Positions 32,883 through 39,979 of a stretch of 64,000 bases of DNA are shown here, piece after piece. The first letter of the stretch is position 1; each line of letters begins with the position of its first letter. The notes under the pieces are model-generated. The model was not told the origin of the DNA. It ran no database searches and was given only the letters and a program-made list of their open reading frames with translations. Both the position numbers and the translations under genes were made by a program. The DNA comes from Collinsella provencensis (GTDB taxonomy: Bacteria > Actinomycetota > Coriobacteriia > Coriobacteriales > Coriobacteriaceae), in assembly GCF_900199705.1 (NCBI RefSeq), contig NZ_LT904908.1:529542-593541 (forward strand), written 5' to 3'.

Positions 32883-33932
32883 ATGCCCAACGAGCTTAGC
32901 TACGAAGTGAGCCTCAAGCGCAGCAACGAGATTCGCGCTGATCTTCCCGCGCATCCCGAGAACTATACGATGCTCACGGGCGATCGCCCCACGGGTCGTC
33001 TGCACCTCGGCCACTACTTCGGAACGCTCAAGAGCCGCGTTGAACTGCAGAACATGGGCGTGCGCACCAGTGTTCTCATCGCCGACTACCAGGTCATCAC
33101 CGATCGCGATTCGACCGATAACATCCAGGACAACGTGTACAACATGGTTATGGATTACCTCGCGTGCGGCCTCAATCCCGATAAGACCATGATCTACACC
33201 CATTCCGCCGTTCCCGCATGCAACCAGCTCATGCTCCCCTTCCTCTCACTCGTGAGCGAGGCGCTTTTACAACGCAACCCCACGGTGAAGGCCGAGATGG
33301 AGGCGAGCGGCCATGAGCTCACGGGCCTGCTACTCACCTATCCCGTGCACCAGGCATGCGACATCCTGTTCTGCAAGGGCAACGTGGTTCCCGTTGGTCG
33401 CGACCAGCTGCCGCACATCGAGCTCACGCGCACCATCGCCCGCAAGTTCAACAACCGTTACGGCGAGGTATTCCCCGAGGTCGACGCGCTGCTTTCCGAC
33501 ACTCCCCTCTTGCCCGGACTCGACGGCCGCAAGATGTCCAAGAGCTATGGCAACGCGATTTCGCTGTCCATGACCGCAGAGGAGACCGCTAAGCGCATCA
33601 AGAAGAGCCAGACCGACGGTGAGCGCATGATCACGTTCGATCCCGAGGGGCGCCCCGGCGTCTCCGGCCTGCTCTCTACCGCTGCCATTTGCACGGGCCG
33701 CACCGAGGTCGAAATTGCCAAGGAGATCGGCATGGGCGGTTCCGGCCAGCTCAAGAAGTACGTGACTGAGGTTGTCAACGAGTACTTCGCGCCCATCCGT
33801 GCGCGCCGCGAGGAGCTCGCACGTGACCTCGACTACGTGAAGGACGTTCTGCACGAGGGCAATCGCCGCGCCAACGAGATCGCCAACGCGACGCTCGCAG
33901 AGGTGCAGGAAGCCATGGGAATGGTGTACTAG
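32883..33932 (+). CDS. trpS: Tryptophanyl-tRNA synthetase
   Basis: Class I synthetase charging tRNA-Trp. The product has 349 residues. HIGH-type motif in PTGRLHLGHYFGTLKS, KMSKS in DGRKMSKSYGN, and LDAPCT-free class Ic architecture typical of TrpS, with VPVGRDQLPHIELTR. AAGGAG lies 5 bases before the ATG. It ends at a long hairpin. Its closeness to the Trp-attenuated ECF operon 2.8 kb downstream is notable, though the two are separate transcripts. Confidence 0.96.
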   Translation: MPNELSYEVSLKRSNEIRADLPAHPENYTMLTGDRPTGRLHLGHYFGTLKSRVELQNMGVRTSVLIADYQVITDRDSTDNIQDNVYNMVMDYLACGLNPDKTMIYTHSAVPACNQLMLPFLSLVSEALLQRNPTVKAEMEASGHELTGLLLTYPVHQACDILFCKGNVVPVGRDQLPHIELTRTIARKFNNRYGEVFPEVDALLSDTPLLPGLDGRKMSKSYGNAISLSMTAEETAKRIKKSQTDGERMITFDPEGRPGVSGLLSTAAICTGRTEVEIAKEIGMGGSGQLKKYVTEVVNEYFAPIRARREELARDLDYVKDVLHEGNRRANEIANATLAEVQEAMGMVY

Positions 33933-36651: not shown

Positions 36652-36660
36652 TGTTATAGT
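36652..36660 (+). promoter_or_regulatory. Extended -10 promoter of the leader peptide/ECF operon
   Basis: TGT-TATAGT matches an extended -10 element. No good -35 lies 17 bases upstream (TGTAGA). A transcript starting near 36667 would have about 75 bases before the leader peptide, beginning with a hairpin AGCACTC/GAGTGCT (36675-36698). Confidence 0.6.
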
Positions 36661-36741
36661 TCCCCCCAAGCGGAGCACTCTAGCGTGATGGAGTGCTTCT
36701 CAGACACACCGCATTTCGCGCACACGAAAGGAGTCACCAGC

Positions 36742-36807
36742 ATGAAAACCAACGTAACCCTTTGCAACAACTGGTGGCGTTCTTTCCGTTTTGCCGGTCA
36801 ACGGTGA
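36742..36807 (+). CDS. Tryptophan leader peptide (21 codons, tandem Trp)
   Basis: Tiny ORF reading MKTNVTLCNN-WW-RSFRFAGQR and stop. AAAGGAG lies 8 bases before the ATG, one of the best ribosome sites in the window. Two adjacent TGG codons occupy 36772-36777. The last codons and the stop overlap CCGGTCAACGG (36794-36804), which can pair with the 5' side of the downstream terminator. This is the arrangement of ribosome-mediated attenuators: ribosomes stalled on Trp codons when charged tRNA-Trp is scarce leave the antiterminator strand free, while ribosomes that reach the stop cover it and the terminator forms. Assigned as a regulatory peptide, not a functional protein. Confidence 0.88.
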   Translation: MKTNVTLCNNWWRSFRFAGQR

Positions 36808-36862
36808 GTCCGTCCGTACTCCATTTGTTACGCATGGCCCCCGTTTGACCGGGGGTCTTTTT
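36794..36862 (+). promoter_or_regulatory. Trp attenuator: antiterminator/terminator pair
   Basis: Terminator: CCCCCG (36838-36843), loop TTTGAC, CGGGGG (36850-36855), then TCTTTTT. Antiterminator: CCGGTCAACGG (36794-36804) is complementary to CCGTTTGACCGG (36841-36852) with a single bulge. The two structures are mutually exclusive because both use 36841-36852. The ECF S-component start follows 32 bases after the T-tract. Confidence 0.88.
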
Positions 36863-36893
36863 ATGTTTCCACCTTCTCTTGAGAGGAATTGCC

Positions 36894-37466
36894 ATGTCAC
36901 AGAACACCACCCCTTCCGGTCAGGCCCGCACCGTCATCACCGAAACGCACAACGGACTTGACGTGCGCCACCTCGTCTTGCTCGCCGTCCTGCTCGCCGC
37001 AGGCTTCATCCTCAACTTCACCGTCGGTAAGGCGATCACCACGATTTCCGGCGGTGCCATCGCCCCTGAGTTCATCATCTCCGCCTTCTGCCTTACAATC
37101 CTCGTGATCCGTCCCGATATGGTGCAAGCGCTCATCATCGGCCTCATCTCCGCCGCCGTCATCCAAATCACCACCACCTCCCCCGGTATCGATTTCCTGG
37201 CCGAAGGCATCGCCGCCGTCGTCATGGCGCTCATCGTCAAGGGCGGCATGGGAACGCCTGCCGAGCGCTTCATCCCCGTGGTGGGCACGTTTGTGACCAC
37301 GTTCCTCTCGGGTTGCATCTTCATGGTGGTCAAGATGGCCATGATGGGTTTTGCCACCGAGCTCGCCGCCGTCATGATGCCCGTCGTCGCGCTGACCGCC
37401 GTGTTCAACGCCTGCCTGGTCGGTGCCCTGTACCTGCCCATCAAGCACGCACTCAAGATCGCATAA
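36894..37466 (+). CDS. ECF transporter substrate-binding (S) component, probably for tryptophan
   Basis: Small integral membrane protein of 190 residues with about five or six hydrophobic segments (LVLLAVLLAAGFILNFTVG, FIISAFCLTILVI, ALIIGLISAAVIQI, FVTTFLSGCIFMVV, VVALTAVFNACLVGAL), the size and topology of an ECF S component. It is followed by genes for the fused ATPase and the T component with almost no gaps, so it forms a dedicated (group I) ECF importer. I do not recognise the substrate from sequence alone; the Trp leader and attenuator directly upstream point to tryptophan or a derivative. ATG 36894 has GAGAGG upstream. Confidence 0.8.
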   Translation: MSQNTTPSGQARTVITETHNGLDVRHLVLLAVLLAAGFILNFTVGKAITTISGGAIAPEFIISAFCLTILVIRPDMVQALIIGLISAAVIQITTTSPGIDFLAEGIAAVVMALIVKGGMGTPAERFIPVVGTFVTTFLSGCIFMVVKMAMMGFATELAAVMMPVVALTAVFNACLVGALYLPIKHALKIA

Positions 37467-37470
37467 CGCC

Positions 37471-39240
37471 ATGGAACCCATCATCGAGCTCGATCGCGTC
37501 TCGTTCACCTATGCAGACGCGGACGTCTGTTGCCTGCGCGACATCACCCTCGCCATAGATGAGGGGACGTTTGTGGGAATCATCGGCCCATCCGGCGCGG
37601 GCAAGACAACGCTCACACACGTATGCTCCGGAGCCGTACCACATCATTTTTCGGGAAAGTTCTTCGGCGCCGCCCGCGTGGCGGGCATGGATACCTGCAC
37701 GGTTTCTCTCACCGATATCGCTCGCGTGGTGGGATCGGTGCTGCAGGACATCGACGCCCAAATGGTCGCCTCCGTCGTTGAGGACGAGCTGCTGTTCGGT
37801 CTCGAGAACTTTGGCGTCGCGCACGACCAGATCGAAGCACGCATCTCAGGCGCGTTCGACGCCATCGGCATCGCCGACCTGCGCCAACGCGAAATAGCCA
37901 CGCTCTCCGGCGGCCAGAAGCAGAAGGTGGCTATCGCCGCGATCCTGGCGCTCGAACCACGCGTCCTCGTACTCGATGAGCCCACGGCCGCCCTTGACCC
38001 TGTGAGCGCCCGCATGGTGTTCGAGGTGCTCCGCACCATCAACCAGACGCGCGGCATTACGGTCGTCATCGTCGAGCAGGCCGTGGCGTTGCTCTCCGAG
38101 TTCTGCAATCGCGTCATCGTGCTCGACCAAGGCACGGTGGCGCTCGACGGCACACCGCACGAGGTTTTCGCGCATGCCGAACAACTACGTCGCATCGGCG
38201 TCGACGTTCCCCGAACCGCCCGTATCTCGAATAGCCTCGCCACCGCGGGGCTCATCCCCACGTGCGAGCCCTGCCTGAATGTCGATGAGGCATACAAGCT
38301 CGTTTCGTCCCTCATTAACCCACAGAAATCTGGCGCGCGCACCTCAAACGTACACCAGCCGATCGACGATGAGCGCGGCCGCTCACCGCACGCACCGCGC
38401 GTCGAATTAAACGCATCGCCCGTCGTCGAAGTCCGCAACGTCTCTTTCTCCTACGCAAACGGCGGCGCTGCCGTGCACGACCTCGAGCTACACGTGGCAC
38501 CCGGCGAGATCGTGGGCATCGTGGGGCAGAACGGCGCGGGCAAAACCACGCTCACCAAGCTGCTGAACGGCCTGCTCAAACCGGAACGCGGCACCGTGGC
38601 GATTGCGGGCAACGATACGAACACTACTCCCGTATCGACCATTGCCCGCCATGCGGCAACCCTCTTCCAAAACCCCGACCGACAGCTCTGCCGCAACACC
38701 GTGCTCGAAGAGGTCGCCTTCGGCCTTGAGCTGCAAGGTGTTTCGTCCACAGAAGCGCAGCGGCGAGCACAGGCGGTCATCGAGCGCTTCGGCCTTCCCG
38801 CAAACGAAGCGCCATTCAGCCTTTCACGCGGACAGCGCCAGATGGTGGCGCTCGCAAGCGTGGTTGTCATGGAACCGCAGGTCGTCATCCTCGACGAACC
38901 CACCAGCGGACTCGATTACCGCGAATGCATGACCGTAATGGAAACTGTGCGCGACATGGCCCAAAATGGAAGCGCCGTGGTGCTCGTCTGCCACGATATG
39001 GAAGTCGTCAGCGATTTTGCCCAGCGCGTCGTCGTGATGGCGCAGGGCCGCATCTTGGGCACAATGCCCACGCACGAGGCGTTCCGCAATACCCAACTGA
39101 TGGAAGCGGCCCATATCGCCCCGCCGCAGGTCATCGCGCTTTCCGAGCGCCTATCGCGCGGCGTCTCCCCGACCTTTGCGGGAATTGCCGAGGTTTCACA
39201 TCTCGTCGGGCATGTTATGGAGCTGGTGCGCCATGAATAA
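37471..39240 (+). CDS. ECF transporter ATPase, two fused EcfA domains
   Basis: Cytoplasmic ATPase of 589 residues with two ABC domains in one chain. Domain 1 (about 1-265): Walker A GPSGAGKTT, signature LSGGQKQKVAIA, Walker B VLVLDEPTAALD. A variable linker of about 50 residues follows. Domain 2 (about 325-589): Walker A GQNGAGKTT, signature LSRGQRQMVALA (Arg replaces the second Gly of LSGGQ), Walker B VVILDEPTSGLD. EcfA and EcfA' are normally separate proteins or, as here, fused. The start codon lies 4 bases after the S-gene stop, and the 3' end overlaps the T gene by 8 bases, so translation is coupled. Confidence 0.92.
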   Translation: MEPIIELDRVSFTYADADVCCLRDITLAIDEGTFVGIIGPSGAGKTTLTHVCSGAVPHHFSGKFFGAARVAGMDTCTVSLTDIARVVGSVLQDIDAQMVASVVEDELLFGLENFGVAHDQIEARISGAFDAIGIADLRQREIATLSGGQKQKVAIAAILALEPRVLVLDEPTAALDPVSARMVFEVLRTINQTRGITVVIVEQAVALLSEFCNRVIVLDQGTVALDGTPHEVFAHAEQLRRIGVDVPRTARISNSLATAGLIPTCEPCLNVDEAYKLVSSLINPQKSGARTSNVHQPIDDERGRSPHAPRVELNASPVVEVRNVSFSYANGGAAVHDLELHVAPGEIVGIVGQNGAGKTTLTKLLNGLLKPERGTVAIAGNDTNTTPVSTIARHAATLFQNPDRQLCRNTVLEEVAFGLELQGVSSTEAQRRAQAVIERFGLPANEAPFSLSRGQRQMVALASVVVMEPQVVILDEPTSGLDYRECMTVMETVRDMAQNGSAVVLVCHDMEVVSDFAQRVVVMAQGRILGTMPTHEAFRNTQLMEAAHIAPPQVIALSERLSRGVSPTFAGIAEVSHLVGHVMELVRHE

Positions 39241-39979
39241 CGTCATCGATTATGTTCCCGGTACCACGGTGCTGCATCGCCTGAACCCCGTTGTCAAGCT
39301 GGTGCTTGCCGCCGCCATCATCGCGGCAACACTTCTTGCCAACAGCTGGTTCGCACTCGTGGGGCTCCTCGTGCTCACCCTCGCCCTGGGAGCGTACGCG
39401 GGCACGCTCTCGCGCCTTAAGGGGTTGCTCGCCATGCTCATCCCCGTTGCACTCATCATGCTGATCCTGCAGGTCATATTTGTTCGAACGGGTGAGCCCG
39501 TGCTCGTTGTCGCCACCACCAATGGCCTTGCGACGGGAGGGCGCGCGTGCCTGCGCTTGATCGGCATCGCGCTTCCCCTCGTGCTCGTGCTCACGGTTAC
39601 GCGCCTTACCGACCTGGCGAATGCCTGCGTGGAAGTTCTGCATCTCCCCTACCGCTACGCTTTCACGTTCACCACGGCCCTGCGATTCGTCCCCGTGTTC
39701 ACGCAGGAGATGCAGGCGATTATGGAGGCGCAGACCGCGCGCGGCGTCGAGTTTGACACGCGCAACCCCTTCAAGAAGCTCTCGCTCATGCTGCCCATCT
39801 GCATCCCGCTTTTGGTGACCTCGGTGGGTAAGACCGATGCAGCCGCCCTCGCGGCCGAGCAGCGCGGTTTTTATCTGCGTACACGCGAGAGCTCGTACAA
39901 GCGCTATCCCATTACCGCGCTCGACTTCGCTGCGCTGGCATTCTGCGCGATGCTCGTCGTTTTGGGCATTGTGATGTAA
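39233..39979 (+). CDS. ECF transporter transmembrane (T) component
   Basis: Integral membrane protein of 248 residues linking the S component to the ATPases. It begins DYVPGTTVLHRLNPVVKLVL, a classic EcfT opening, has about five membrane segments, and carries the two coupling motifs of EcfT, Ala-Arg-Gly in AQTARGVEF and a related EQRGFYLRTR. ATG 39233 overlaps the ATPase gene. Last gene of the transporter, 41 bases before the methyltransferase-like gene. Confidence 0.92.
   Translation: MNNVIDYVPGTTVLHRLNPVVKLVLAAAIIAATLLANSWFALVGLLVLTLALGAYAGTLSRLKGLLAMLIPVALIMLILQVIFVRTGEPVLVVATTNGLATGGRACLRLIGIALPLVLVLTVTRLTDLANACVEVLHLPYRYAFTFTTALRFVPVFTQEMQAIMEAQTARGVEFDTRNPFKKLSLMLPICIPLLVTSVGKTDAAALAAEQRGFYLRTRESSYKRYPITALDFAALAFCAMLVVLGIVM

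Follow-up and report, generated by a model that had tools for sequence, protein, structure and literature searches.

Trp leader attenuators are known from the trp operons of Corynebacterium and Streptomyces and from trpS in S. avermitilis, where a short ORF with two or three UGG codons is followed by an antiterminator and by a GC-rich terminator with a U tract (PMC1262725). Those leaders precede genes for biosynthesis or for the tRNA synthetase and follow the pattern gGCC-rGCy-GGCC (PMC1262725). The leader described here, found in a stretch of 64,000 nucleotides from Collinsella provencensis (the window), has the same kinds of parts but differs from them in its CGGUC/GACCG core, its fixed 21-nt spacing and its target, an importer. 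Trp attenuators in Actinobacteria are reportedly also the subject of a paper by Korolev et al. from 2015. Judging from sequence comparisons, the locus most probably (at roughly 0.9) carries a ribosome-mediated leader-peptide attenuator, responsive to charged tRNA-Trp, that governs an ECF-type tryptophan importer; the interpretation given in a preliminary description of this DNA is supported. No report of a Trp leader attenuator ahead of an ECF importer was found in open-access full text, consistent with the view of that description that leader attenuation of such importers is little described; the importer would join the known targets of leader-peptide attenuation.

The features of the window locus are collected in Table 1. 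The leader has a short, translated-looking ORF with tandem Trp codons (TGG at 36772-36777), and an intrinsic terminator precedes the first gene, its stem CCCCCG-TTTGAC-CGGGGG at 36838-36855 being followed by TCTTTTT. The ribosome site, the 21-codon ORF, the tandem TGG codons and the clean terminator with the S gene next to it had all been named in the preliminary description and were confirmed from the sequence. Three of its other statements held in part: i) the antiterminator strand is present but does not overlap the stop codon as described, since CCGGTCAACGG ends just before it and it is the extended pairing that runs through the stop; ii) the pairing partner does lie in the terminator, but CCGTTTGACCGG covers the inner stem, the loop and the start of the 3' arm and not the 5' half alone; and iii) the S-A-A'-T operon exists, but A and A' form one fused gene instead of two separate ones. 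The leader region folds better than 200 of 200 shuffled sequences (z -3.4). Among 73 leaders, TATA[AG]T occurs within 140 nt upstream in 47 and an extended -10 element in 40. The gene for tryptophanyl-tRNA synthetase, trpS, lies about 3 kb upstream at 32883-33932 of the window.

Table 1. Leader elements and importer genes of the window locus, in window coordinates
Feature	Position	Strand	Basis or remark
Extended -10 promoter element TGTTATAGT	36652..36660	+	Sequence; TATAGT = 36655-36660; no clear -35
CACCG, potential partner of the CGGTG end (36802-36806) of the antiterminator strand in the untranslated leader	36707..36711	+	Folds
Shine-Dalgarno GAAAGGAG of the leader ORF	36726..36733	+	Sequence; GAAAGGAG also in the Collinsella leader alignment
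Leader peptide ORF MKTNVTLCNNWWRSFRFAGQR	36742..36807	+	21 codons plus TGA; orthologs
Antiterminator strand CCGGTCAACGG	36794..36804	+	GGTC core at 21 nt from the first base of the last Trp codon
Partner strand CCGTTTGACCGG	36841..36852	+	Inner stem, loop, start of the terminator 3' arm
Intrinsic terminator, GC stem then TCTTTTT	36836..36862	+	Conserved with two-sided changes among orthologs
ECF S component, TrpP-like, 190 aa	36894..37466	+	Profile similarity; predicted fold
Fused EcfA-EcfA' ATPase, 589 aa	37471..39240	+	TIGR04520 and TIGR04521 above cut-off
EcfT transmembrane component, CbiQ family	39233..39979	+	PF02361, 80 bits

The S gene is present in 44 of 45 Collinsella genomes, and all 29 readable Collinsella upstream regions have a Trp leader, with a terminator whose core is the same in each. 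The leader occurs almost throughout the two families nearest to the window, which named records identify as Coriobacteriaceae and Atopobiaceae. An S homolog was detected in 164 of 298 sampled genomes of the class. A covariance model built from 40 leaders found a single full-length copy in the window's own genome, the window leader itself (E 2.7e-13), and matched 129 of 296 class genomes at E<=0.01, with more than 100 strong matches, nearly all of them ahead of S; in the named collection, 73 of the 78 loci scanned gave a strong match. Outside the class, a scan of 396 phylum genomes with the main-type leader model returned weak matches only and no convincing copy; the exception is a locus of Gardnerella vaginalis (L197; E 1.6e-5), which carries its own WWW leader. 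At L078 and L198, as well as at matches in genomes G188 and G194, a terminator persists but no leader was detected, L198 giving a partial leader match only; at L187, neither of two scans detected a leader.

The operon encodes EcfA, EcfA' and EcfT together with a protein that has the predicted fold of an S component, and thus has the make-up of an ECF transporter. The window S protein by itself was assigned to no family in scans of Pfam and NCBIfam, and a PDB sequence search gave a chance match only. Similarity to TrpP (PF17099) emerged when the S homologs were scanned with a looser limit: 40 of 58 matched TrpP at E<=0.1 (best 1.1e-12), and those of L197, L201 and L202 scored above the curated cut-off of the family. 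Window S aligned with PF17099 at E 0.0021 (18.3 bits, with a curated cut-off of 27.2). For its AlphaFold2 model (pLDDT 85), Foldseek returned no match at E<0.001; the top PDB matches in VIA-align were all S components, with Z of 10-16 (maximum 16.2), unrelated matches reaching 8.4. By profile and model, then, window S is a distant TrpP relative with a predicted S-component fold. Tryptophan is likely to be the imported substrate, as indicated by this TrpP similarity together with the UGG-specifier T-boxes on orthologous operons (see below). C. glutamicum TrpP was considered as a precedent and rejected because it is an unrelated protein of the SdpI family (PMC11995493). Many genomes (including L006, L010, L014, L036, L046 and L089) carry, behind the first S gene, another one with 44-50% identity to window S.

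In a third family (f3), 15 of 16 orthologous operons are preceded by a T-box RNA (E 1e-9 or better), and the orthologous operon of two Clostridia also has a T-box, the E values ranging overall from 1e-9 to 1e-16. The T-boxes of the third family (L057-L072) score below the RF00230 gathering score of 93; they were detected at an E-value threshold only, the Rfam gathering threshold having given none, and a standard scan would miss them. UGG (Trp) occupies the specifier position of the T-boxes in this family and in the two Clostridia. A Met specifier, with AUG one base earlier, was rejected on the basis of the Rfam alignment register and of the UGGC bulge, which fits G73 of bacterial tRNA-Trp. A tree of S proteins, a quick one with some long branches, requires a minimum of four sensor changes, the T-box lying at the root. 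With chances we put slightly above even, leader-peptide attenuators supplanted Trp T-boxes in front of this one importer on at least four separate occasions, within a tryptophan-scavenging regulon of Coriobacteriia comprising a TrpP-type ECF importer, a TnaT-like symporter and a trpB-like enzyme; two unrelated sensors of tRNA-Trp would then be interchangeable at one locus.

The need for tryptophan and the other genes behind such leaders bear on what is imported. trpA, a gene needed for making tryptophan, was absent from all 14 tested genomes of the window's family, the window genome included. An ECF system on which common gut bacteria without trpA probably depend gains a testable function, the import of tryptophan. 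Leaders of this kind also stand before TnaT-like Na+ symporters of the SNF family in one genus (g18) and before trpB-like genes in several genomes. TnaT, a member of that symporter family, transports tryptophan (PMC2494555). The symporter gene lies behind a WWW leader at L108 (5265-6599, minus strand) and at L109-L113, and L108 has both the leader-headed symporter and the ECF operon. Another WWW leader stands before trpB-like genes at L115, L117, L118, L119, L121, L203, L204, L206 and L207; that of L121 (G116:C2:546168-547418) has one internal TAA in the assembly. At L115, the trpB-like gene headed by the leader is followed by a gene fusing S with an ATPase. This neighbourhood, and the fact that control by Trp starvation suits any Trp source, would fit a variant in which the mechanism is as proposed here but the imported compound is indole or another precursor or derivative of tryptophan. 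We consider the variant unlikely, given that S is related to TrpP and that both trpA and the trpB-like TIGR01415 are absent from three Collinsella genomes, that of the window among them, in which imported indole would therefore need another enzyme.

The Trp codons seen in the window persist in its relatives, and so does strand complementarity (see below), the two sequence features whose loss in relatives the preliminary description had set against its own interpretation. Of 41 distinct leaders, 39 contain three Trp codons; the exceptions are the window, with two, and one leader with WAW, so that at least two closely spaced Trp codons are found in 41 of 41. In 40 of the 41, the distance from the first base of the last Trp codon to the GGUC core is 21 nt, and in 39 the core begins 9 nt before the stop codon. 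Beside a constant nucleotide core and spacing, the residues that follow the Trp run vary freely (R, H, N, Q, S, T), and leaders ahead of the Na+ symporters (NSS) stop earlier (WWWRSS*, before the core) with the core at the same distance. These features are relevant to whether the leader could be an arrest peptide resembling TnaC, whose nascent chain senses free tryptophan, with the operon induced at high Trp. TnaC, the leader peptide of the E. coli tna operon, likewise contains Trp and precedes a gene for a Trp permease (TnaB), but it differs from the window leader in being an arrest peptide, with induction by free Trp in the service of catabolism. One leader group does have fairly conserved residues around the Trp run (LNNWWWRDA..GR), as would be expected of such a peptide. 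Other leaders have only the Trp run in common, however, and the free variation after it beside a constant core, the retention of that core in symporter leaders that stop before it, and the use of a T-box by relatives make an arrest peptide highly improbable; as a T-box responds to uncharged tRNA, low Trp is the expected signal.

Complementarity of the strands is likewise kept in the relatives and changes in step between leader types. The duplex of the antiterminator strand (strand 2) with the terminator has a mean of -18.4 kcal/mol, compared with -12.3 for shuffles, and between leader types that differ, a changed strand is matched by a changed loop (CGGUC/GACCG, CGGAUUA/UAAUCCG, CGGAUCA/UGAUCCG and GGUCGAUG/CAUCGGCC), cognate pairing giving -17.2 kcal/mol and permuted pairing -14.1 (P 5e-5, in a permutation that ignores relatedness). 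Within the main leader type, covariation between strand 2 and its terminator partner was not significant (P 0.105), since both are too conserved. Of the 9 consensus pairs of the terminator, 8 show compensatory changes on both sides among orthologs. A second hairpin joins GGCGUGA, after the Trp codons, to UCACGCC, after the stop (GGCGCGA/UCGCGCC elsewhere), its own partners pairing better than swapped ones (P 0.0002, again ignoring relatedness). The window leader is without the GGCGUGA/UCACGCC hairpin; the upstream CACCG, a feature of the window genome (Collinsella) that is seen in its predicted folds, can hold the strand instead.

From these parts the following mechanism is proposed: i) when Trp-tRNA is scarce, the ribosome would stall on the leader Trp codons with its leading edge just short of the strand preceding the stop codon, and the free strand could pair with the emerging terminator loop and inner stem, so that no terminator would form and S-A-A'-T would be transcribed; ii) when Trp-tRNA is plentiful, the ribosome would reach the stop and cover the strand, and the terminator would form; and iii) in an untranslated leader, upstream or flanking pairings would hold the strand and the terminator would form as well. 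In folding calculations with the ribosome at the stop codon, covering the strand, the terminator formed in 41 of 41 leaders. For a ribosome placed at the Trp codons, the antiterminator formed in 41 of 41 when the RNA ended 6 bases into the GACCG arm, and it yielded in most of them once the remaining 3' arm emerged. The antiterminator, which excludes the terminator, is reached only with the ribosome at the control codons; this holds in folding during emergence, and at full-length equilibrium in some orthologs only. For the window leader with a stalled ribosome, the antiterminator was predicted to win (P 0.98) when pairing across the ribosome was disallowed, and the terminator (0.95) when the upstream RNA was allowed to pair across it. 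At equilibrium, the terminator is the favoured structure of the full-length transcript in most orthologs, also when the ribosome is stalled; the choice would therefore have to be kinetic, made during transcription, as is accepted for classical attenuators. Full-length equilibrium folds, in which the terminator prevails in most species regardless of ribosome position unless the strand is free early, would also be compatible with a general control of translation or termination, in which the leader ties transcription to translation in general and its Trp codons are a matter of chance. Against this stand the close Trp codons in every distinct leader and their exact spacing, the replacement by UGG T-boxes and the reuse of the leader ahead of other Trp genes, and we regard such general control as scarcely credible.

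The attenuator thus proposed would share with the trp and his leaders of E. coli (RF00513, RF00514) the logic of stalling, antiterminating and transcribing. It differs from these in that its strand pairs with the terminator loop and both inner arms, and the window gave no match to an Rfam leader, the Trp leader RF00513 included, at the gathering score. Its S protein aligns over its full length with TrpP (PF17099), a tryptophan transporter of Bacillus, but shares an operon with its own A-A'-T module; in B. subtilis, trpP is controlled by TRAP. With the Trp T-boxes (RF00230) of the third family and the Clostridia, the leader has in common the signal, tRNA-Trp, the orthologous operon and control at a terminator. 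A T-box, in contrast, binds uncharged tRNA directly and needs no leader translation, and none was found in the window in a scan at the gathering threshold. Closely related bacteria offer a natural comparison of two unrelated RNA sensors for the same tRNA on the same operon.
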